Part shown: positions 31,673-44,569 of the stretch, in pieces
Layout: each line of letters starts with the position of its first letter
How positions within the stretch are numbered: the first letter of the stretch is position 1
Assembly: GCA_004173355.1 (NCBI GenBank)
Contig: SEAD01000008.1
Coordinates: forward strand, 1 to 64,000
Direction of reading: 5' to 3'
Length of the DNA: 64,000 bases
Origin: Chitinophagaceae bacterium
Lineage (GTDB): Bacteria; Bacteroidota; Bacteroidia; Chitinophagales; Chitinophagaceae
The notes under the pieces: model-generated
The model's database searches: none
Seen by the model: the letters and a program-made list of their open reading frames with translations, nothing else
What the model was told of the DNA's origin: nothing
Program-made: the position numbers and the translations under genes

Positions 31673-34600
31673 ATGCACAGCCCCACCATGCCCGGTTACC
31701 AGAATTTCCGGTCCGCCAAACCCGCCAGCAAACTGCTTCCGGCATTTTTCTTCTTTTGTATACTGTTGTTGTCAGCCACAGTCTCCAGGGCACAGTCGGC
31801 CAATGATTACCGGAGTGCGACTGTTTTGGGCAACTGGGACCTGGCCACCAGCTGGGAACGGTACAATGGTACCGCCTGGATCGCGGCTACCGGTTATCCG
31901 ACTGCAACCGATGGCCAGATCACTATCCGGAACGGGCACGAACTGCGGATAGTCAACCCGGTAAACGTGGACCAGCTCGTGGTGGAATCGGGTGGCAGGC
32001 TTTTCAACTTTTCGCCGGCATTCAATATCAGCAACGGACCGGGCACTGACCTGTTATCATCCGGTGACCTGCTCAGCAACACCGCCGCATCCAATGTAAC
32101 CGTTGCCGCAGGTGCAGAGGTGGATGCCCTCTTTTATTTCAGTGGTGGCATATTTACCAATAATGGCTCCGTGCGAAACCTCGTTTTCCTGGGCAACCTA
32201 CCGCAGTTCCTCAATGGTAGCGGGACTGAGGGCACACTGCTGGTACACAATAACAACACACTCACCCTTGGGGGCAACCATACCGTAACCGAACTCCTTA
32301 ATTTCAACAGCGGGAGAATCGTCACGGGACCCAATAAACTGGTGATGGCACAGACGGCAAGCACCCAGCTGAATGCCTCATCCCTGTCGTTCGTGGAAGG
32401 TAATCTCGAAATTTTCCCGCCAACGGGCAACAGCCAGCAACGATTGTACCTCGGTACCGGCAGCTCGCCGCGACCGCTGATCCTCAACCTGGTTAATGTG
32501 ACTGGGGGAAGTGTGATGGTATCCAATACAGATGGCGACTATCCCGGCATTAACTCGTCCGTTATCAATCCAAATGCAGGCGTCAATACTTACTGGCGCC
32601 TGGTGGGGGATCTTGTTTTTTCTTCAGCCAACATAGAAGTGAACTGGAATGCAGGTGATGTGGACGGAGGTAATCCGTCCCTTTTCCGCGCTGCGAAATA
32701 CAGCCCGTCTACCGGATGGTCGTACCCCCCGGTCAGCAACCAGGCTTCGGGGGCCATCACCGTCAATGGCATCAATAGTTTTACATCGGTGGCCAACCTG
32801 GTGGTGGGTGAGCTGAACTGTGTACCACCCGTCATCACCTGTGCACCTGACCTGACTATCTGTGGCAATGACGCCACCGGATATGCCGGTCTCGTTTTTT
32901 TCCCGCAGGAAATCCCGGCCACCAGGGTAATTGATCTCTCCGAGCGCACCCTTACCTATACCAATGTGTCCATCAATGGTGCCGGCAATTCACTCAGCAT
33001 CGCCCCCGGATCGCCCGTCAATCTCCGGTATCACCAGGAGGTGGCCTTTGACCAGGTAAATGGTTTTTGTCCCGGATGTGTGGTTCAGACTTCCATCGGG
33101 ATTGGTGGCACATTCCAGGCACTGAGATGCGACCCATCGATCGTCAACGGTACCGTTGTGGATGCCGATATCAATTTTACAGCACCAGCCATACCAGGCA
33201 TCTATTACCTCACACAGGAAGGCTCGCTCGACTACTTTTGTGTGAATTTCAAATTCAACAACATCCCGTCAAATGCCATTGGGGTACTGGTTGTCGGGAA
33301 TCCATTCCCGACAGTGGCGGGTGGTTGTGTGGGGGTACGTTACAGCAACAATGCCCCGGCCATTTTACCAAATGGCACCACCGCCGTGACATGGACCGCT
33401 ACCGATTCATTGGGTAATACCAGCACCTGCGTACAGAACATCACTGTGCAGGCTGCTACCCGTTACCACCGCGACCGCGACATGGATGGATATGGGTCAA
33501 CCGAATTCTTTGCATATAGCTGTTCACAACCCGCGGGCTGGTTAACTGATGGCAGCGACTGTAATGATTACGACGTGAATATCCATACCGGCTGTGGTCC
33601 GGTCTGCAACCTGGGGGTCACTACCACTACGGGTGATACCCTCGTAATCTGTAGAGAAAGCCAGGCAGCTACCACCAATGTCAGCCTAGTGATCACCAAT
33701 GGTACCGCACCGTTTGTGGTGACCGGCGATACCCTCAATGTGGGTCCGGGTATCCACTACTACCAGGTAACCGATGCCAACAACTGTGTGGCTTATGATA
33801 CACTCACCGTGATTGCGGCCAACTGTATCGTGCCGTATTATACACCACCCGTAAATGATACGAGCAACTCGCTGATCGGGGCGGAACTGACGCAGGTTTA
33901 TCTGTCACCGGAATCGGTAGTCGATACTACAGCCACCAACAGTATATTCCGGATCGATTCGGAAAACGAACAGATCCTGATCCAGATTATTTCGGTGGAA
34001 GGACAAACAGCCGCGATCCGCTCACTGCTGGAGAACCAGTACGGGCTGAACAATGTAATTGAAAACGAAACCCCGGGCCAGATCATTACCGGTTATTTCC
34101 CGATCGCCAACCTGCCTGCACTGAATGCCATGCCGCAATACATCCGTTATGTGCGGCCGTACTTCACACCGATCTCCTCGGGCACTACGGGTCTGGCGGT
34201 ATCACAGGGTGATAAGGCAATGATGTCTGATCTTGCGCGGAAAGCATGGAAGGTATCCGGGAAAGGGGTACGGATCGGGGTGATGTCAGACAGCTATAAT
34301 ACATCGTCGGCCGTAACCGACCGGGCAGCAAACGACGTGCTGAATGGCGACCTTCCCGGCCCTGACAACCCCGTCCACAAACAACCGGTAGTCGTGTCTG
34401 CCGAATATCCCTATGGCCGCGCAACCGATGAGGGTCGCGCCATGCTGCAGATCGTCCACGATATTGCACCGGACGCCAGTCTGGTATTCCGCACCGGATT
34501 TGTAAGCCCGGAACATTTTGCAGATGGTATACGGACGCTGCGGGACGAAGGCTGTAAGGTGATCGTGGATGATATCACTTACCTGACCGAACCTTTCTTC

Positions 34601-37600
34601 AGGGATGGGGTGATCGCAAGAGCGGTGGATGAAGTAGCCGCTTCGGGGGTCAACTACTTCACATCGGCAGGGAACTTTGGCGTCAAATCATACGAAGGGA
34701 TTTTTAACCCGATAGCCGCCAGTAATTATGTGGGCAGCGCCCATAACTTTGGCGGGGGCGAAATTTTCCAGGATATTTCATTGAAAGCAGGCAGTTACAC
34801 CATCGCCCTGCAGTGGGAAGATAATTTCTACTCGCTTGGTGGCGGCACCGGCGCAGTAAATGACCTCGATATCTATCTCGTGGACCAGTTCGGCACGCGT
34901 CTCTTTGGTTTCAACCGGGTTAACACCGGTGGTGATCCGATCGAGATCCTGCCATTTGTGGTGGTGGCACCGGTGAAAGCCAAACTCATTGTCACCCGCA
35001 AAGCCGGCAACCAGAATGTCCGCTTCAAGTACGTGATGTTCCGCGGTGAGGGGATGATCGAAAACTTCAACCAGGGCAACAGTACCGTAGTGGCGCAGGC
35101 GAATGCCGCAGGCTCCATTGCAGTCGGTGCCGTGCTTTACAGCAACACACCTGCCTATGGTGTGACCCCTCCTACAGCAGCATCGTTCTCGTCAAGAGGC
35201 GGCCTGCTGATCAATGGCGTCAACCGTTTCAAGCCCGATATCATGGCGCCAAACGGCGTTAATACATCTGTCAGCTTCGGTGGCGAGGACATCGACGGCG
35301 ATGGCATCCCCAACTTCTTCGGCACCTCTGCCGCAGCGCCACATGCCGCTGCGGTTGCCGCCTTGCTGATGGAAGCACGGTACCGATTTACGGGCGGAAC
35401 CTACACCGGTCCGGAGATGAAAGCCTTGCTGCAGGCGACTGCTATCCCGATGGACAGCACGGGCGTTTTTGCCAACAGCGGACGTGGCTTCATACAGGCC
35501 GACCAGGCCTTGCAGAGTTTCTCCAACCCGTCACCGGTTTACATCAGCCACCACATCACCAACGAAGGCACGCCAGGTGTGAATCCTGTGACGCTTGTAA
35601 TCGAAGGAAAATATTTCAAATCAAATGCATCAGTGATCCTGCGTTCCGACACCATCCCTGCAGAGATTGTCAGCAGTACAGAACTGCGGGCGGTCATCCC
35701 GGCATTTACCGGCAACCCGCCACTGACAATTTATAACCCGCCGATGTTATCCAATGGCCTGGACGGTGGCGCGAGTGATTCCATCTTCCTGGGTCAAACC
35801 CGGAGTAAAAATGTTCGGGTCATCGTGAACGATACCAGCAAACTGTATGGCGAGGCGATACCCGAATACCGTTTCAGGGTGACAGTAGATAGCCTGACGC
35901 TTGAAGAGAGTGGTCTCACACTTGCCGATCTCGGTCTGACCGACCTGAGCTTCACTTCATCGGCTACCGACATGAGCGGGATCGGATTGTACTATCGCAG
36001 GGCGACCTCATCGGTCACTGACCTCAGTATCCCTGCATCGCTGGTACTCGCCGGTCTGTATAACTATGAATTTGCAGATGGGTTGCTTACGGTCAACAGG
36101 ATGCCGGTGACCGTGACCCCACGCGACACCACCCTTACTTACGGCCGTGCAATCAGGGGACGTGAACTCCGGATCAATTACGGATACGACAACAGCAGGG
36201 TGTCCCCGGCGTTCCGTGTCCGGCTCAATGACTCGCTGGTGCTCAACCACCAGTCCACCATGTCCAACTCCGTAATGATCATCAATGGCAAACAGGCCGT
36301 GAATGGCCTGGCCGCAACTGATTTCAGAAACATGGGCTTTATGGTGAGTGGTAAAGCCGCCGTAAATGGCAAGGCTGCGGTCAACGGCAAAGCCGCGGTC
36401 AATGGAATTACATATGATACCACCTACTTTATACCGGTGGCACCCGAAAGCCTCTATGATTACCTGGTTGATTCGGCCAATGCAGTGATCCGTAACGGCA
36501 AACAGGCTGTCAATGGTAAACAGGCCGTGAACGGCAAGGCGGCGGTAAATGGAAAAGCGGCTGTCAATGGAAAAGCCATGGTCAATGGCAAACAAATGGT
36601 GAATGGCAAGGCTGCTGTCAACGGCAAAGCCGCTGTCAACACCAGCAGTTTCAATGACGAAACAAACGAAAACATATTCCTGGTGGTGGATTCGCTGGAT
36701 GCACTGGCTGATGCCGAACCACTCGAAGGTTATGAATCGATGAATATGGTGACCGGTTATGAAGTGGGTGAATGGCTGATCGGACCGGGGGTACTGATGT
36801 CGGAAAACTTTGATATCAGTTACGGCCTCGGCCACCTGCGGATCGTTCCGGAAACACTCACCGTGAAAGCCGTGGATACCACCACCGGCTGCAGCGGTGT
36901 GCAACCGTTGTACCGCAGTACCAAAGCGATCTTCCAGTATGAAGACGCCGACAGCATGGTGATCGCGGGAGGACCGGCTTATACGGTCACCACCACTGCC
37001 GGTGCGGCTACCGGAACCGGGGCACTCGCGGCAGGCACCTATCGCATCGTACCTTCCGGTGTAAGTTTTGTGTCGGCTGTTCCGAACTACAGTGTGGCAT
37101 ACCAGCCGGGAACCCTCACAGTGACCGGCAACGGACCTGCACAGCCGGCCGTCAGTGTTACCCAGCCCAGCTGCACTGCACCTGCGGGTACCATCAAGGT
37201 AACGTCGGTGAAAACCGGTCTCAAATTCAGCATAGACGGAGTTACCTATACCAATTCCACCGGCATCTTCAGCGGTCTGCTACCCGGCACCTACCTGCTG
37301 ACTGCCATCAATGCTACGGGTTGCAAGTCACCCGTGGTAACGGTAATACTGGCAGGGCCCGGATGCGCAACAATCGGCAACCTGGTATTCAAAGACCTCA
37401 ATGGTAACGGGATCCAGAATAGTGGTGAAGGCGGGATCAGCGGGGTGACAGTACGGTTGCTGAATGCTGCGGGTAACCAGGTAGCCAGTACCACTACCAA
37501 CTCCGGCGGTGCGTATTCGTTTACCAAACTGGTAGCGGGCACCTACAGCGTGACATTCAGTACACCGGCCGCACATGTGCCGGCTCCTGCAAAACAAGGC

Positions 37601-38899
37601 AGCGACGGCAGCAAGGACAGTGACCCTGTCAATGGTACCGTAACCAATATTGTACTAACAACCGGCAAGGTGAACAACGATATCGATGCGGGCTTTATCC
37701 CTTCGGTATTACAACTGGGCAACAAGGTCTGGTACGACGAAAATAATGACGGATTCGCAGGCACACGGGAAAGTGGTATCTCCAGGTTAACGGTGAAGCT
37801 GTACCATGATGCCAATAATGATAACGCAGCGGATGGTGCAGCCATTGCCACAAAAACCACGGACAATACCGGCGCTTATCTCTTCACGGGTCTTGCGCCG
37901 GGTAATTATATCGTGGGTGTGGTAATACCGGACGGATATACCAGCAGCACGCGGAATGGTGGCGATCCGGATAACAATATCAACAACGATGATAACGGCC
38001 AGGTGCTGGTGGGTAATGAAATCCGCGGGCTGGCGATCACGCTGGCAGCGGGGTCAGAGCCTGATGGCAATACCAACAACACAAGTGACTTTGGACTGCT
38101 GCCCGATTGCAGGCTGTCGTCCTCCGGATCCAACCTGCTGTTTAACGGCAGTTTCGAACAAGGTATCGCCGGATGGTGGTTCAATGGCGGACTGTTCTTC
38201 ACGAGTACCGATTACAATGCCTGTGGCAACAGGAACGGCTACAACACCGCACTCAACAGGCCCTCACTGGTGTACCAGGATGTGACAGTGAGTCCGGGCA
38301 GTGTGCTTACCCTGAGCGGTTTCGCAGGTACCCATACCCGTGGCCTGGCCTGCAGTCCGAAACTCAGCCTGCTCTTCCTCAACTCAGCCGGCAGGCTCCT
38401 GCTGCAGAAAGATGTGGCGGTAACACGTGATGTGGATGTAAACAATGAACAACTTGCTTTCTATACACTCACTGCCACTGCACCTGCGGGAACCGTGAAG
38501 GTCAGGGTACAGAATTCGATCAGTTGCAATTTCCTGAAAGTGGATGGGCTGAGCCTGGTATCGGCTAACAGCAGTACTATTGCCAGGGGAGCAACCCTCA
38601 CCGCTGAGGAGTTAAACGAAGAACCGGAAGAAAAAATCACTCCCGGCCTGGATGCCGTAGTGAGTCCGAACCCGGTCACCGAATCCTTCCAGCTGAAGGT
38701 CAGCAGTGATGATCGCGTGACACCGGTCACCGTCCGTATACTTGGTATCGATGGCCGCAGGATCTCGGAAGAAAAAACGGGAGCCAACAGTACACTGCGT
38801 ATCAACAGCAGCAGCTGGCAGGGCGGGATGTATTATGTGGAACTGGTCCAGGGATCGGTAAGGAAAGTGATTAAGGTTGTACGAACCAACAACAGGTAG
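31673..38899 (+). CDS. Giant secreted multidomain protein with divergent S8 (subtilisin-like) domain, MBG, SdrD-B and T9SS sorting domains
   Basis: 2408 residues. Signal peptide to about residue 42 (PAFFFFCILLLSATVSRAQ). Next come a beta-helix-like region, a HYR-like domain (about 385-600) and a short Asp-rich RDRDMDGYG segment. The subtilisin-fold domain runs from about 850 to 1265 with Asp873, oxyanion Asn1001 and Ser1219 in FGTSAAAPHAAA; the expected HGT motif reads DEGRAM, with Glu920 where His is normal. Then come an IPT/TIG-like domain, MBG-type domains (about 1380-1810) interrupted by six-residue NGKxxV repeats (1538-1656), two SdrD-B-like domains (IGNLVFKDLNGNG, LGNKVWYDENNDG), a carbohydrate-binding-like module (LLFNGSFEQGIAGW) and a type IX secretion sorting domain (VVSPNPVTESF). 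It is exported to the surface or medium. Confidence 0.85.
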   Translation: MHSPTMPGYQNFRSAKPASKLLPAFFFFCILLLSATVSRAQSANDYRSATVLGNWDLATSWERYNGTAWIAATGYPTATDGQITIRNGHELRIVNPVNVDQLVVESGGRLFNFSPAFNISNGPGTDLLSSGDLLSNTAASNVTVAAGAEVDALFYFSGGIFTNNGSVRNLVFLGNLPQFLNGSGTEGTLLVHNNNTLTLGGNHTVTELLNFNSGRIVTGPNKLVMAQTASTQLNASSLSFVEGNLEIFPPTGNSQQRLYLGTGSSPRPLILNLVNVTGGSVMVSNTDGDYPGINSSVINPNAGVNTYWRLVGDLVFSSANIEVNWNAGDVDGGNPSLFRAAKYSPSTGWSYPPVSNQASGAITVNGINSFTSVANLVVGELNCVPPVITCAPDLTICGNDATGYAGLVFFPQEIPATRVIDLSERTLTYTNVSINGAGNSLSIAPGSPVNLRYHQEVAFDQVNGFCPGCVVQTSIGIGGTFQALRCDPSIVNGTVVDADINFTAPAIPGIYYLTQEGSLDYFCVNFKFNNIPSNAIGVLVVGNPFPTVAGGCVGVRYSNNAPAILPNGTTAVTWTATDSLGNTSTCVQNITVQAATRYHRDRDMDGYGSTEFFAYSCSQPAGWLTDGSDCNDYDVNIHTGCGPVCNLGVTTTTGDTLVICRESQAATTNVSLVITNGTAPFVVTGDTLNVGPGIHYYQVTDANNCVAYDTLTVIAANCIVPYYTPPVNDTSNSLIGAELTQVYLSPESVVDTTATNSIFRIDSENEQILIQIISVEGQTAAIRSLLENQYGLNNVIENETPGQIITGYFPIANLPALNAMPQYIRYVRPYFTPISSGTTGLAVSQGDKAMMSDLARKAWKVSGKGVRIGVMSDSYNTSSAVTDRAANDVLNGDLPGPDNPVHKQPVVVSAEYPYGRATDEGRAMLQIVHDIAPDASLVFRTGFVSPEHFADGIRTLRDEGCKVIVDDITYLTEPFFRDGVIARAVDEVAASGVNYFTSAGNFGVKSYEGIFNPIAASNYVGSAHNFGGGEIFQDISLKAGSYTIALQWEDNFYSLGGGTGAVNDLDIYLVDQFGTRLFGFNRVNTGGDPIEILPFVVVAPVKAKLIVTRKAGNQNVRFKYVMFRGEGMIENFNQGNSTVVAQANAAGSIAVGAVLYSNTPAYGVTPPTAASFSSRGGLLINGVNRFKPDIMAPNGVNTSVSFGGEDIDGDGIPNFFGTSAAAPHAAAVAALLMEARYRFTGGTYTGPEMKALLQATAIPMDSTGVFANSGRGFIQADQALQSFSNPSPVYISHHITNEGTPGVNPVTLVIEGKYFKSNASVILRSDTIPAEIVSSTELRAVIPAFTGNPPLTIYNPPMLSNGLDGGASDSIFLGQTRSKNVRVIVNDTSKLYGEAIPEYRFRVTVDSLTLEESGLTLADLGLTDLSFTSSATDMSGIGLYYRRATSSVTDLSIPASLVLAGLYNYEFADGLLTVNRMPVTVTPRDTTLTYGRAIRGRELRINYGYDNSRVSPAFRVRLNDSLVLNHQSTMSNSVMIINGKQAVNGLAATDFRNMGFMVSGKAAVNGKAAVNGKAAVNGITYDTTYFIPVAPESLYDYLVDSANAVIRNGKQAVNGKQAVNGKAAVNGKAAVNGKAMVNGKQMVNGKAAVNGKAAVNTSSFNDETNENIFLVVDSLDALADAEPLEGYESMNMVTGYEVGEWLIGPGVLMSENFDISYGLGHLRIVPETLTVKAVDTTTGCSGVQPLYRSTKAIFQYEDADSMVIAGGPAYTVTTTAGAATGTGALAAGTYRIVPSGVSFVSAVPNYSVAYQPGTLTVTGNGPAQPAVSVTQPSCTAPAGTIKVTSVKTGLKFSIDGVTYTNSTGIFSGLLPGTYLLTAINATGCKSPVVTVILAGPGCATIGNLVFKDLNGNGIQNSGEGGISGVTVRLLNAAGNQVASTTTNSGGAYSFTKLVAGTYSVTFSTPAAHVPAPAKQGSDGSKDSDPVNGTVTNIVLTTGKVNNDIDAGFIPSVLQLGNKVWYDENNDGFAGTRESGISRLTVKLYHDANNDNAADGAAIATKTTDNTGAYLFTGLAPGNYIVGVVIPDGYTSSTRNGGDPDNNINNDDNGQVLVGNEIRGLAITLAAGSEPDGNTNNTSDFGLLPDCRLSSSGSNLLFNGSFEQGIAGWWFNGGLFFTSTDYNACGNRNGYNTALNRPSLVYQDVTVSPGSVLTLSGFAGTHTRGLACSPKLSLLFLNSAGRLLLQKDVAVTRDVDVNNEQLAFYTLTATAPAGTVKVRVQNSISCNFLKVDGLSLVSANSSTIARGATLTAEELNEEPEEKITPGLDAVVSPNPVTESFQLKVSSDDRVTPVTVRILGIDGRRISEEKTGANSTLRINSSSWQGGMYYVELVQGSVRKVIKVVRTNNR
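36284..36640 (+). repeat. In-frame 18-bp tandem repeats encoding NGKxxV units
   Basis: Two blocks of six-residue units lie inside the giant protein. The first has about five imperfect units around residues 1538-1577. The second has eight uninterrupted NGK units at about 1612-1656. Positions 4-5 of the unit vary (QA, AA, AM, QM) while N-G-K-x-x-V is kept. Codons differ between units (ggcaaa, ggtaaa, ggaaaa, ggcaag), so the array is old or under protein-level selection. Confidence 0.9.
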
Positions 38900-38940: not shown

Positions 38941-40890
38941 ATGAAGTCATTTTTTTTAGTGTTGATGCTGGCCGCCGCCTGCCTCGTGGCGCCGGCCCAG
39001 AAAAACGGATTAATGCAGCTGCGTGAAAAACTCACGCAGTCGATGCCGGACTCCGAACGGGTGAATACGCTCAATGCGCTGAGTAAAAGTTTTTTCAGCG
39101 ATAGCCCGGATACATCGGTAGCGATTGCCGCCAGTGCGAGGACATTGGCGGAAACGGTCGACTACAAGCCGGGACTAGCACTGGCACTGAAGAATATGGG
39201 GATCGGCCTGTACCTGCAGGGGAAAAACCTGGATGCGGTCAAATCATTCCAGCAGGCACTCACGGTGTATGAATCGATCGGGGACCGCACCGGCATCGCC
39301 AATATGCTCAGCAACCAGGGAGCCGTTTATTTCAACCAGGGGGATGATGTAAAATCGCTCGACCTGCACCTGCAATCGCTGAAACTGTCCGAACAACTCA
39401 GCGATTCATTACGGATCCTGACTTCACTCACCAATATCGGTGCGGTATACCTGAATAAGCCTGCCACTTACCAGAAAGCACTGGACTACTTCCTCCGCTC
39501 GTATAATATGAGCCTGGGGTTAAAGGACCAGTACTCCATCGGTACGTCCACTGCCAATCTCGGGGAAACCTATTTCAAGATCGGGGATGATACCAAGGCG
39601 CTGTTTTACCTCACCGAATCCATCAAGGCCTACCAGGGCACGGAAGACCTGCCCTACCCAATGAACTATCTCGGGCGGCTCTACACCCGCGAAGGCAAAT
39701 ACGATAAAGCCATCACCACCCATCTGGAAGCTTTCCAGTATGCGGAAAAACTGGATACCCGGTTGGATATGACACAGTCACTGGTGGGCATGGCCCAGGC
39801 CTGGGCGGCAAAGGGTGATCCATCACAGGCCATTGCCAGTTACAAACGCGCGCTGGAAATCGGTACCCCGTTGAAGGCAATGACCGAAATGCGGGATGCA
39901 TACGAAGGACTGACCCAGGCATACGAAAGCAAATCGGATTACAACAGTGCATTCCATTACCAGGACCTGCTGATGGGAATCAAGGATAGCCTGTTCAGCA
40001 GCGATGCGCAACGGAAAATGGGAACCCTGCAGTTTACTTTTGATATTGAAAAAAAAGAATCACAGATCAGCCTGCTCAGCAAGGACGCACAGATTCAGCA
40101 GCAGGAAATCAACCGGCAGAAACTGGTGCGAAACGGCTTTATCGGCGGGTTTGCGATTGTATTACTTTTCGCCGGGGTGTTTCTCAAACAACGGATCCGT
40201 ATAGCACGGGAAAAGAAACGCAGCGATGATCTCATGCTCAACATCCTTCCATCCGATACGGCCGAAGAGCTGAAAGCGACCGGTACGGCCAAAGCGAAAA
40301 GTTTTGACTCGGTCAGTGTTTTGTTTACCGACTTCAAGAATTTCACCCAGGCCTCGGAAATGCTGAGTCCGGAGGAACTGGTTGCCGAAATCAACTTCTG
40401 CTACAGCGAATTCGACCGGATTGTTACGAAATATGGTATCGAAAAAATCAAAACGATCGGCGACTCCTACATGTGTGCCGGGGGGCTGCCGGTGGAGAAT
40501 GACACGCACCCTTACGATGTGGTGGCGGCCGGTCTGGAGATGGTGGAGTTTATTGAGTCCAATAAACGGGACCGGGTAGCCAAAGGCCAGCCTTATTTCG
40601 AATTACGCATCGGGGTGCATACCGGGCCGGTAGTGGCAGGTATTGTCGGGATAAAAAAATTCGCCTATGATATCTGGGGTGATACCGTGAATACTGCATC
40701 GCGGATGGAAAGCAGCGGCGCACCGGGAAAAGTCAATATCAGCGGTGCCACTTTTGAACTCGTACAGGAAAAATTCCTGTGCTCCCATCGTGGGAAACTG
40801 GAAGCGAAAAACAAGGGCCTTATCGATATGTATTTTGTAGAGGGCATCTCGGCAAGGATGATCCAGGAAAACCGCTATCACCTTTTATAG
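38941..40890 (+). CDS. TPR-containing class III adenylate cyclase
   Basis: The 649-residue protein has a signal sequence, about six TPR units (residues 55-350: KNMGIGLYLQGKNLDAVKSFQQAL and repeats), a helix linker, one membrane helix (NGFIGGFAIVLLFAGVFL, about 398-415), a short coiled stretch and a C-terminal class III cyclase domain. Metal-binding aspartates are Asp464 (LFTDFKNF) and Asp508 (TIGDSYM). The Lys in EKIKTIGD and the Asp in YDIWGDTVN fit adenine rather than guanine. The TPR part faces the periplasm and the cyclase the cytosol, so an external protein-binding event could set cAMP. It follows the giant gene by 41 bp. Confidence 0.9.
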   Translation: MKSFFLVLMLAAACLVAPAQKNGLMQLREKLTQSMPDSERVNTLNALSKSFFSDSPDTSVAIAASARTLAETVDYKPGLALALKNMGIGLYLQGKNLDAVKSFQQALTVYESIGDRTGIANMLSNQGAVYFNQGDDVKSLDLHLQSLKLSEQLSDSLRILTSLTNIGAVYLNKPATYQKALDYFLRSYNMSLGLKDQYSIGTSTANLGETYFKIGDDTKALFYLTESIKAYQGTEDLPYPMNYLGRLYTREGKYDKAITTHLEAFQYAEKLDTRLDMTQSLVGMAQAWAAKGDPSQAIASYKRALEIGTPLKAMTEMRDAYEGLTQAYESKSDYNSAFHYQDLLMGIKDSLFSSDAQRKMGTLQFTFDIEKKESQISLLSKDAQIQQQEINRQKLVRNGFIGGFAIVLLFAGVFLKQRIRIAREKKRSDDLMLNILPSDTAEELKATGTAKAKSFDSVSVLFTDFKNFTQASEMLSPEELVAEINFCYSEFDRIVTKYGIEKIKTIGDSYMCAGGLPVENDTHPYDVVAAGLEMVEFIESNKRDRVAKGQPYFELRIGVHTGPVVAGIVGIKKFAYDIWGDTVNTASRMESSGAPGKVNISGATFELVQEKFLCSHRGKLEAKNKGLIDMYFVEGISARMIQENRYHLL

Positions 40891-40892
40891 GA

Positions 40893-41666
40893 TCACCATC
40901 CCCCGAACAGCCCGTCGACCAGCGCCCGGTCGTATTTCTTTTTATCAAACATGTACTCATACGGTGCCCGGTAGGGTAGTCCCTTCCGTTTTTCCTTGAG
41001 GCGTCTGAGGATACCAAACGAAATCATACGTCGCTGGAAATTGCGCCGGTCCAGTTGTTTACCCAGGATACTTTCGTACAGCTTCTGCAGTTCGGGCATG
41101 GTAAAACGTTCCGGCAGCAGGTTGGATCCTACGGGCATATAGTTGAGATGCTGGCGCAACACTTCCAGTGCCGAGCGCAGGATATGTTCATGATCCATCA
41201 TCAGGGTTGGAAGGTCGTTCACATCGTGCCATTCGCAGGCATCGGACAGGTCGTCCGGTATCGCATGCACAAACGAATATTCCACCAGCGCATAATAACC
41301 AACGGTAACGAAGCGCTGCAGCAGCCAGTGATCAGGCTTGAGCGTCATCCGGTTTTTCTTTGCCCGGCCGCGATGGATGGCGGGATCGGACCGGTCAGGA
41401 TCACCAAACAAACGGAACTGATGCAGGAAGATCTGGTCAAGGCCGGTCCGCTGCCGGAGAATCCGGGCGGCAGCTTCATCCACCGATTCTTTTTTTGCTA
41501 CGAAACCACCCGGCAGCGACCAGTACTTCATGCCATTGGCACGAAGAAGCAGTGCCCGCAACTGTCCTTCATGGAAACCAAAGATTACACAGTCGACGGA
41601 TAAGGACGGCATGAAAAGCCGTTCACCATCCACCAGGTAACTCATCAGTGTCTTGTCCTCTCTCAT
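40893..41666 (-). CDS. Nudix-domain transcriptional regulator (NrtR/AraR-like)
   Basis: The 257-residue protein has an N-terminal Nudix domain (about 20-150) and a C-terminal winged-helix domain (about 165-250; FTMPELQKLYESILGKQLDRRNF then RRMISFGILRRL). The Nudix box is degenerate: PGGFVAKKESVDEAAARILRQRTGL has R-Q-R where the catalytic E-E should be. This suggests ligand binding rather than hydrolysis, as in the NrtR and Bacteroides AraR regulators. It is probably a cytosolic repressor responding to a sugar or nucleotide derivative. Neither arabinose nor NAD genes are near, so its targets are unknown. Confidence 0.82.
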   Translation of the reverse strand: MREDKTLMSYLVDGERLFMPSLSVDCVIFGFHEGQLRALLLRANGMKYWSLPGGFVAKKESVDEAAARILRQRTGLDQIFLHQFRLFGDPDRSDPAIHRGRAKKNRMTLKPDHWLLQRFVTVGYYALVEYSFVHAIPDDLSDACEWHDVNDLPTLMMDHEHILRSALEVLRQHLNYMPVGSNLLPERFTMPELQKLYESILGKQLDRRNFQRRMISFGILRRLKEKRKGLPYRAPYEYMFDKKKYDRALVDGLFGGW

Positions 41667-41803
41667 AATAGTTAAAAGTAAAATTTTCGGGGCTTAAATC
41701 CGCGATTATGTTTGGCTGAATGTCACAGCGGGGTAACCGATTGTTTTCCCAAATGGTAAACGCTTTTTACTTATCACGTAAGCGACGGCCTCCGGGGGCG
41801 TGT

Positions 41804-41811
41804 TACATTTG
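41804..41811 (+). promoter_or_regulatory. TACATTTG promoter element of the candidate RNA
   Basis: An exact match to the Bacteroidota -7 consensus TAnnTTTG, placed about 7 bases before the first base of the predicted RNA closing stem. No good -33 TTTG is seen at the proper distance. Confidence 0.45.
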
Positions 41812-41817
41812 CCGCGG

Positions 41818-41980
41818 TATACGGGAGGAATGATGCCGGCAGCATCACAATCCCGGACAACCATTCACCCATCCGGGGGTTCCTTTCCCCTGATGGATGT
41901 CGTGCTTTTAGTTTAGTTCTCCGTATTAGTTTAAGTGTTGCAGTGTTTACGGGATGCTTCTTTCGGAGCGTCCCTTTTTT
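41818..41980 (+). ncRNA. Candidate structured small RNA with own promoter and terminator
   Basis: About 165 nt between the TACATTTG box and a terminator. Predicted elements: closing stem ATACGG (41819-41824) with CCGTAT (41921-41926), extended by four more pairs across a bulge. Hairpin 1 is TGATGC/GCATCA (41831-41836 and 41842-41847, 5-base loop). Hairpin 2 is CATCC/GGATG (41870-41874 and 41895-41899) with an inner GGGG/CCCC stem. A terminator follows at 41951-41980. The first stem begins where transcription should start. No known RNA family was recognised. A 28-codon frame with a GGGAGG ribosome site (41830-41916) lies inside, so a small-peptide mRNA is the alternative. Confidence 0.5.
41951..41980 (+). 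terminator. Rho-independent terminator of the candidate RNA
   Basis: GGGATGC pairs with GCGTCCC (one G-T pair) around a 10-base loop, followed by TTTTTT. No annotated plus-strand gene precedes it, which is what points to a non-coding transcript. Confidence 0.75.
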
Positions 41981-42011
41981 GTCCGTGAAAATCTTTGGTA
42001 GTTACCGATAA

Positions 42012-42048
42012 ACTAAAATAAAAAACCACCGGGTACTTCCGGTGGTTT
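42012..42048 (-). terminator. Terminator of the DoxX gene
   Basis: A perfect 10-bp stem AAACCACCGG/CCGGTGGTTT (42023-42032 and 42039-42048) with a 6-base loop. On the minus strand it is followed by TTATTTTA, ending the DoxX transcript. Confidence 0.8.
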
Positions 42049-42072
42049 ACATCAGTCGTTCATCAGCGCCCG

Positions 42073-42453
42073 TTATTTCGTCAGCATCGGCAGGTACTTA
42101 TGCCTGTTTTCAACCAGCACCCAAATTTCGATCAGCAACAGTGCAACGGCAATGGGTAATCCCTCAGGAGCATGCAGCGCATGGGTAAATAAGATACCAA
42201 CCAGGATGGGCAGGATAACGATAGCGCCGAGTGCGCGGGTTTTGGGGAAAATGAAAAGTAATCCCCCCAGGATTTCCACTGCACCCACGAGTGGCATAAG
42301 CCAGGGTATGGACATAAATGCGGTAAAAAGGCTCAGCATCTTTTCAGGCATTTCCTTTGGCGGCGGCATGTAGTTAAAGAATTTATTGAGACCGGCATTG
42401 ATAAACATCAGCCCGAATAACAGGCTTACAATGAACAATATTATTTTTTTCAT
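42073..42453 (-). CDS. DoxX family membrane protein
   Basis: The start is set at the ATG at 42451-42453 (MKKIILFIVSLLFGLMFINAGLNKFF); the upstream in-frame codons lack membrane-protein character. The 126-residue protein has four hydrophobic helices and the family pattern with an early GLNKFFNYMPP, a middle LVGAVEILGGLLFIFPKTRALGA and a final helix. DoxX proteins are small inner-membrane subunits or redox-related proteins of mostly unknown role. The gene is a single transcription unit ended by a clear terminator. Two copies of CAGGCACGGGAAAG lie upstream at 42542 and 42582. Confidence 0.82.
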   Translation of the reverse strand: MKKIILFIVSLLFGLMFINAGLNKFFNYMPPPKEMPEKMLSLFTAFMSIPWLMPLVGAVEILGGLLFIFPKTRALGAIVILPILVGILFTHALHAPEGLPIAVALLLIEIWVLVENRHKYLPMLTK

Positions 42454-42694: not shown

Positions 42695-44569
42695 ATGAAC
42701 CTGAAAATTCTGCTCTCCACACTGCTCCTGTTTACAGGCAGCCTTTCCCTTATTGCCCAGGATGAAGACGACAAAAATGTCAGCATCAGCGAAAGCCGGC
42801 GGGAATACCGTTTCCAGAAAGGCAACAGCGATAACCCCGTGCTGGTGCGCGAGGAAAACAGCCGCACTTTCTTCTGTAAAAATTACCGCACTGAAATACC
42901 GGTGGTTGAATTTTATTCGGATGTGGAACGGATAGACGATGTGGACATCACCGTCGACAAATCCGCCAAACACGGGATCAAACCGGCATACGACTATTAC
43001 AATTCCGACGGCATTTTTTATTCCGATGCAAGGGTCTGCTATTTCTCGCTACCACTGGCCAAACAGGGTTCCTCTTCCAGGGTAGTGTTCAAAAAAACCG
43101 TGTACGATCCCCATTATTTCACCACGATCCATTTTATGGAAATGCAGGAAGTGGCCGATGCCGAACTCCGGGTGGTGGTGCCCGACTGGATGCAGGTCGA
43201 ACTGAAAGAACTGAATTTCCCCAAATACAAAATCACCCGTACGGTGGAGAAGGGCAATGGCGAAACGGTTTATATCTACCGTGCGCGCAACCTGCCGGCA
43301 ATGCCAAAGGAATCTTCCTCACCGGGCATCTCCTATTATGCACCGCATATAATGGTGCTGAATAAATATGCCGACCTGAAAGATGGACGGATCACGTATT
43401 TCAGCACGCTCGCTGACCAGTACAAATGGTATCACAGTCTCGTGAAATCCGTGCAGAATGACGAAGTGGCCATTTCAGCAAAAGCAAAGGAAATCACCAC
43501 CGGCCTCAGCACCGATATCGAAAAGGTGCGTGCCGTGTACCAGTGGGTACAGGACAATATCCGCTACATCGCATTCGAAGATGGCATCGCGGGTTTCAAA
43601 CCGGAAAAGGCACAGGAGGTGATGGCGAAAAAATATGGCGATTGCAAAGGCATGGCCAACCTGATGACCGAACTGCTGGTTTCCCTCGGTATCGACGCCC
43701 GCCGTTGCTGGATCGGCACGCGACACCTGGCTTACGATTACAGCACCCCATCCCTGATTGTAGACAACCATATGATCAGCGTGTGGATGGATAAGGGAAA
43801 AAAAGTGTTTCTGGATGGCACCGAAAAGTATATCGGTCTCGGTGAAGTGGCCGAACGCATCCAGGGCCGCCAGGTACTGATCGAGGATGGTGAAAAATTC
43901 ATTACCGACAGGGTACCCGTTGCCGATTACCTGCAGAATACCGCGTATGAAAAACGCGTGCTCTCGATTGAAGGTTCCAGTGTAAAAGGACGGATCACGC
44001 AAAACTGGAAAGGGGAAAACAAGGAAATGCTGCTTTCCGGCCTGCACGGTATTAAAATGGACAAACAGGAAACGGCGCTGAAGACCTATCTCGGCGACGG
44101 CAAACCGAATTTTGAGATCAGCGGTCTCAGGATCAACAACCTGCTTGATTACAACAAAGACGCCAGCGTGGAATACGATATCAGCTGGAAAGATGCGGTG
44201 AGCGAGTTTGGCGATGAGAGTTATATCGAAATCGATAACCGCCGCTCGCTGGAAAATTTCCGTTTTGATACCACCAAACGGAAGCTGCCCTACTGGTTCT
44301 ATTTTAAAAACCACCTCGTATTCGAGACGGATATCAAATTACCCGCAGGCAAAAAGATCAACGAATTGCCCGCCGGGATCGCCATCAACCAACCGGGTTA
44401 TAATTTCAAGGGGGAGTACAAACTCAATGGCCCTACCCTAACCTATCGCTGCGAAATTGTATTGAACCAGTCGGAGATCCGCCCCGACCAATTCTCGCAG
44501 TGGAACCGCGATATCGACCAGCTCCGCAATTTCTACAACCAGCAAATCGTTTTAACGAAAGTCAAATAA
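42695..44569 (+). CDS. Secreted DUF3857/transglutaminase-like protein
   Basis: The 624-residue protein has a signal peptide (to about residue 22), a DUF3857 beta-rich domain (about 50-260), a transglutaminase-like core (about 265-400) and a C-terminal DUF3858-type beta domain. The catalytic triad appears intact: Cys in KKYGDCKGMAN, His in VDNHMISVW and Asp in FLDGTEKY. It is a periplasmic papain-fold enzyme, most likely a peptidase or amide transferase on an unknown substrate. It is followed after 10 bp by a related but altered protein, so the two form an operon. Confidence 0.85.
   Translation: MNLKILLSTLLLFTGSLSLIAQDEDDKNVSISESRREYRFQKGNSDNPVLVREENSRTFFCKNYRTEIPVVEFYSDVERIDDVDITVDKSAKHGIKPAYDYYNSDGIFYSDARVCYFSLPLAKQGSSSRVVFKKTVYDPHYFTTIHFMEMQEVADAELRVVVPDWMQVELKELNFPKYKITRTVEKGNGETVYIYRARNLPAMPKESSSPGISYYAPHIMVLNKYADLKDGRITYFSTLADQYKWYHSLVKSVQNDEVAISAKAKEITTGLSTDIEKVRAVYQWVQDNIRYIAFEDGIAGFKPEKAQEVMAKKYGDCKGMANLMTELLVSLGIDARRCWIGTRHLAYDYSTPSLIVDNHMISVWMDKGKKVFLDGTEKYIGLGEVAERIQGRQVLIEDGEKFITDRVPVADYLQNTAYEKRVLSIEGSSVKGRITQNWKGENKEMLLSGLHGIKMDKQETALKTYLGDGKPNFEISGLRINNLLDYNKDASVEYDISWKDAVSEFGDESYIEIDNRRSLENFRFDTTKRKLPYWFYFKNHLVFETDIKLPAGKKINELPAGIAINQPGYNFKGEYKLNGPTLTYRCEIVLNQSEIRPDQFSQWNRDIDQLRNFYNQQIVLTKVK

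Follow-up and report, generated by a model that had tools for sequence, protein, structure and literature searches.

Does an intergenic gap that carries a promoter-like box and a terminator on the plus strand give rise to a small structured RNA? A first-pass annotation raised this possibility for a 64,000-nt stretch of DNA (hereafter the window) from the 5.36-Mb draft genome of a Chitinophagaceae bacterium, for which a Chitinophagaceae MAG (record SDZZ01000080) is the closest relative with a name. In the analysis presented here the sequence features proved real, the fold had been overstated and conservation was absent, leaving an ordinary species-level sRNA candidate.

Genomic context of the intergenic gap

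The gap spans 41667–42072 (406 bp), holds no annotated-size gene and is bordered on both sides by minus-strand genes: on the left by a NUDIX/NrtR-type regulator gene (40893–41666; PF21906, PF00293) and on the right by a DoxX/MauE-like gene ending at 42073. On the plus strand, a TPR plus adenylate/guanylate-cyclase gene (38941–40890) lies upstream and ends 2 nt from the end of the convergent NrtR-like gene, and a transglutaminase/DUF3857 pair begins downstream at 42695. A cis-regulatory leader or riboswitch was considered and rejected: no same-strand gene follows directly 3′ of the element, and the next plus-strand gene, at 42695, is separated from it by the terminator and then by the minus-strand DoxX-like gene.

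Promoter-like box and terminator

The exact box reported in the first-pass annotation, TACATTTG, is present on the plus strand at 41804–41811. It is a candidate sigma-A -7 box with an exact fit to TAHHTTTG, the -7 consensus (position -12 to -5) obtained from Flavobacterium johnsoniae RNA-seq, in which +1 is placed ~12 nt after the first T of the box (PMC6847099); this F. johnsoniae-derived rule predicts a start at ~41816. A -33 element (TTTG/TTG) looked for upstream of the box was not found, and a second box, TATGTTTG at 41707, contains a G excluded by the refined consensus. Across the window, TANNTTTG occurs 23 times against 32 expected from shuffles, i.e. it is rarer than chance, and a plus-strand copy upstream of the terminator is seen in 15.6% of dinucleotide shuffles of the gap.

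The terminator looks genuine and is an orphan. It occupies 41951–41980 on the plus strand, with a stem of ten pairs and a 4-nt loop (41951–41974) followed by TTTTTT; the earlier description of a terminator with six T was correct except for the stem, which had been given as 7 bp. A terminator of equal strength arises in 2.6% of dinucleotide shuffles of the gap, and terminator and upstream box arise jointly in 0.3%. Elsewhere in the intergenic DNA of the window, strong terminators lie ~20–52 nt after the end of a same-strand gene, and 41951–41980 is the only one with no such end nearby, so that a transcript stopping there is otherwise unexplained. The gap had been described as gene-free with no plus-strand gene preceding the terminator, which agrees with our finding that none ends within 1 kb upstream. 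On these sequence features, a discrete plus-strand unit composed of a TAHHTTTG-type box and an intrinsic terminator appears plausible.

The strongest rival to such a unit is plus-strand transcription that continues past the cyclase gene, crosses the NrtR-like gene in antisense and stops at the terminator, in which case the box would be coincidental and there would be no discrete sRNA. It ranks as the strongest because, in flavobacteria whose transcripts have been mapped, 3′ extensions are more numerous than independent transcripts, with 586 extensions (and a further 67 from partial termination) against 85 independent transcripts in F. psychrophilum (PMC9723704). The 2-nt spacing of the convergent genes, the presence of only a weak 7-bp terminator-like site before 41951 and the 16% chance of a box in the gap are consistent with it. 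However, read-through needs ~1.06 kb of antisense transcription, whereas the other intergenic terminators lie at most 52 nt from a gene end, and we consider this explanation unlikely overall.

A separate observation concerns the sequence around the terminator: CGGACAA (41854–41860) is complementary to TTGTCCG (41979–41985), the two words spanning the terminator, and a longer read-through RNA would pair them; the match is probably due to chance.

Predicted secondary structure

Box, hairpins and terminator stand, whereas we find no support for a multi-stem fold with ATACGG/CCGTAT as its closing pair. The two internal hairpins noted earlier were recovered. Hairpin 1 (41822–41855, plus strand; CGGGA...TGATGC...GCATCA...TCCCG) has a local z-score of -3.7 over 41822–41856, with none of 300 shuffles as stable, for a region picked after the fact; hairpin 2 (41869–41896, plus strand; CCATC/GGGGG with TCCCC/GATGG) has a z-score of -2.5. 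Both are locally stable on either strand, and hairpin 1 equally so on the minus strand, so that structure does not identify the strand.

This strand symmetry also fits a reading of the palindromes as DNA operators for the divergent NrtR-like NUDIX regulator (40893–41666) instead of RNA hairpins, as does their position 155–230 bp upstream of the regulator gene. However, an 81%-identical orthologue of the regulator has no matching palindrome upstream, and only ~21 nt beside the start codon align, which is at chance level; of the explanations weighed here, operators are the least probable by our estimate.

The proposed closing stem would pair ATACGG (41819–41824) with CCGTAT (41921–41926) on the plus strand. 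The complementary words are indeed present, but the stem is at chance level, an equal 6-bp complement beginning near +1 with its mate 60–130 nt away being found in 10.6% of shuffles. In the ensemble of 41810–41985 its pairing probability is ~0.005 and forcing the pairs costs ~2.8 kcal/mol; the stem is disfavoured because CGGGA pairs locally with TCCCG in hairpin 1, using the same bases. The claim of a structured RNA with a multi-stem fold closed in this way is consequently unsupported on both chance and thermodynamic grounds. With the terminator included, the fold is unusual (z = -2.9), but without it the fold is not (z = -1.5 for 41818–41930 and -1.2 for 41818–41945; background sd ~1.2). The fold as claimed is mostly what chance gives.

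Coding potential of the 28-codon frame

A 28-codon frame, MMPAASQSRTTIHPSGGSFPLMDVVLLV, lies on the plus strand at 41830–41916, and with its GGGAGG site it had been put forward as a possible small-peptide mRNA. The frame exists, but its codon score of -0.27 bits per codon equals the median of noncoding open pieces (-0.27), true 28-codon gene pieces having a median of +0.31 and a 5th percentile of -0.01. Neither a homologue of the 28-residue peptide among 294 genomes nor a Pfam match to the frame was found. Bacteroidetes mRNAs are without Shine–Dalgarno sequences, on which the phylum does not depend (PMC6847099), and GGGAGG therefore carries little weight for translation; in addition, a single base separates it from the first ATG.

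A short mRNA encoding the 28 residues would account for the stop codon 34 nt before the terminator, which is the usual spacing, and for an ATG ~14 nt after the predicted start. In addition to the noncoding-like codon use, the missing family match and homologues and the phylum's independence from Shine–Dalgarno sites, the start codon falls within hairpin 1, and we judge such an mRNA very improbable. As a class, a small-protein mRNA was rejected because coding-like codon use and frame conservation both fail. From codon use and the peptide searches, the frame is probably not translated.

Searches for homologues

Rfam searches at the gathering threshold over the whole window and at E-values up to 10 over the element returned chance matches far below gathering scores, in line with the earlier statement that the element could not be placed in a known RNA class. 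The 6S RNAs (RF00013, RF01685, RF01693) resemble it in length and in the proposed closing stem, but no 6S model matched at the gathering threshold in the window or at E-values up to 10 in the element. In the whole source genome, searches with RF00013 and RF01693, for which positive controls worked, were empty, as was a search with RF01685 run without a positive control. The element was rejected as the missing 6S RNA: it has no model match, a congeneric genome that is 97% complete lacks it, and its fold is not a rod with a central bubble. Separately, 6S RNA may have diverged too far in this lineage for the current Rfam models to detect it.

BLAST searches with the element in 59 genomes and with the whole gap in 394 gave only short matches at chance level or in terminators and coding genes, those read being coding-gene fragments or terminators; of these fragments, the one matched in L083 is presumably, by motif, from a cysteine methyltransferase-like gene and that in L085 from an FtsX/MacB-like permease gene. 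Searches of plasmids, phages and viral contigs returned nothing. A covariance model built from the single sequence and applied at E-values up to 0.05 gave matches in 16 genomes, the source genome included, that is, in 15 further genomes and at one extra site in the source genome. Ten of these matches (L065–L074) were read in context; in every one the terminator makes up most of the alignment, and with few exceptions they lie just past the ends of protein genes, and they were rejected as homologues. As what the matches share is mainly the terminator, the latter is of an ordinary type for the family and nothing above it is shared.

Protein-gene terminators in several Chitinophagaceae have the loose form GGG..(CTTC/TTCG)..CCC-TTTTTT, and GTTTACGGG or GTTAAAGGG often comes before it. 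Examples lie at ~1560–1629 of L068 and ~1540–1592 of L072, and a single-sequence model takes them as false homologues.

The sole congeneric genome (G001, stretch L032; 97% complete) keeps the order cyclase, NrtR-like regulator (81% identical), gap, DoxX-like gene and transglutaminase. Its syntenic gap shows no similarity to the element and holds instead a 302-aa Lipoprotein_15 (PF03640) gene on the minus strand (L032, 4901–5809) with its own terminator; a less strictly filtered covariance-model search of the whole congeneric genome was also empty. A homologous structure in relatives, whose absence had been named beforehand as refuting the candidate, was thus found neither in the family genomes (394 by BLAST) nor in the congeneric gap. 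A conserved structured RNA family would present homologues with compensatory changes; no homologue was found in these searches, and since the congeneric genome has another gene in the gap there is no covariation to count.

The congeneric arrangement raises the possibility that the element is a remnant of a lost plus-strand gene, for example the 302-aa Lipoprotein_15 gene, of which a promoter and terminator were left behind. The source genome and the five other relatives searched do not have the lipoprotein gene. However, Pfam searches of six of the open frames and alignment of the gap with the flanking DNA and coding sequence of the lipoprotein gene revealed no Pfam fragment and no significant similarity, and an insertion in the relative accounts equally well for the difference, which makes a remnant quite unlikely in our assessment.

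A proposed species-level transcription unit

The explanation that we tentatively prefer, with confidence just short of even, is a species-level intergenic transcription unit yielding an untranslated RNA of ~165 nt. The box, the terminator and their joint excess over shuffles are observed, and from them we infer a predicted plus-strand transcript of ~165 nt (41816–41980), probably noncoding, for which sigma-A RNA polymerase would start at ~41816 from the TACATTTG box and stop at the 41951–41980 terminator. The RNA would comprise two local hairpins, a U-rich middle with loose structure and the terminator stem. Points against the unit are the missing -33 element, the box being on its own a 16% chance event, a fold upstream of the terminator that is not beyond shuffles, and the lack of homologues in 394 family genomes, with a different gene occupying the site in the congeneric genome. 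Of the small structured RNA originally proposed, what survives is a plausible discrete plus-strand unit, shorn of its closing stem and with a weak case for the peptide.

If active at all, the RNA would most likely be a trans base-pairing sRNA, acting through the single-stranded parts 41856–41868 or 41897–41945. The narrower proposal of a trans-acting sRNA of recent origin, confined to the species, outside the catalogued families and regulating by base pairing, appears rather doubtful. Given that relatives lack the element and that the claimed fold is largely at chance level, it would at best be one among many species-specific small RNAs.

Intergenic sRNAs of B. thetaiotaomicron were defined by a mapped start, coverage and, preferably, a terminator (PMC7366714). 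Among the features considered for this class, the element has a sigma-A type -7 box at its predicted 5′ end, an intrinsic terminator at its 3′ end and no coding potential. There, 27 of the 49 high-confidence intergenic sRNAs are strain-specific (PMC7366714), so that missing conservation is usual, and the missing homologues do not exclude a species-specific sRNA. GibS (145 nt) and other intergenic sRNAs of B. thetaiotaomicron resemble the element as stand-alone intergenic units with a TAnnTTTG-type promoter and a length of ~145–165 nt, and the two hairpins, linear region and intrinsic terminator of GibS recur in the predicted layout of the element (PMC7366714), a likeness that implies no sequence relation. 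In contrast to the element, which is predicted, GibS is transcribed, has been probed, is conserved within Bacteroides and has targets; its 5′ end is unpaired and conserved, whereas in the element a hairpin begins ~6 nt after +1 (PMC7366714). The independent transcripts of Flavobacterium psychrophilum (Rfp; median 176 bp) are likewise similar in length, sigma-A box and lack of coding potential, but they were detected by RNA-seq, and conservation within the genus holds for many of them, whereas the element is predicted and not conserved (PMC9723704).

If transcribed, the element would be one more candidate sRNA for the Chitinophagaceae, in which these RNAs are poorly mapped; as Bacteroidetes commonly have species-specific RNAs that end in a terminator, a single candidate alone would change little. 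The congeneric comparison shows how fast such intergenic units turn over.

Elsewhere in the window, upstream of the cyclase gene, a plus-strand gene (31673–38899) encodes a secreted subtilase-like protein of 2408 aa with subtilase, SdrD B-like, MBG and Por secretion tail regions. An 18-bp repeat within it (~36353–36640) encodes VNGKAA/VNGKQA hexapeptides, which are also kept in the congeneric relative (L032).
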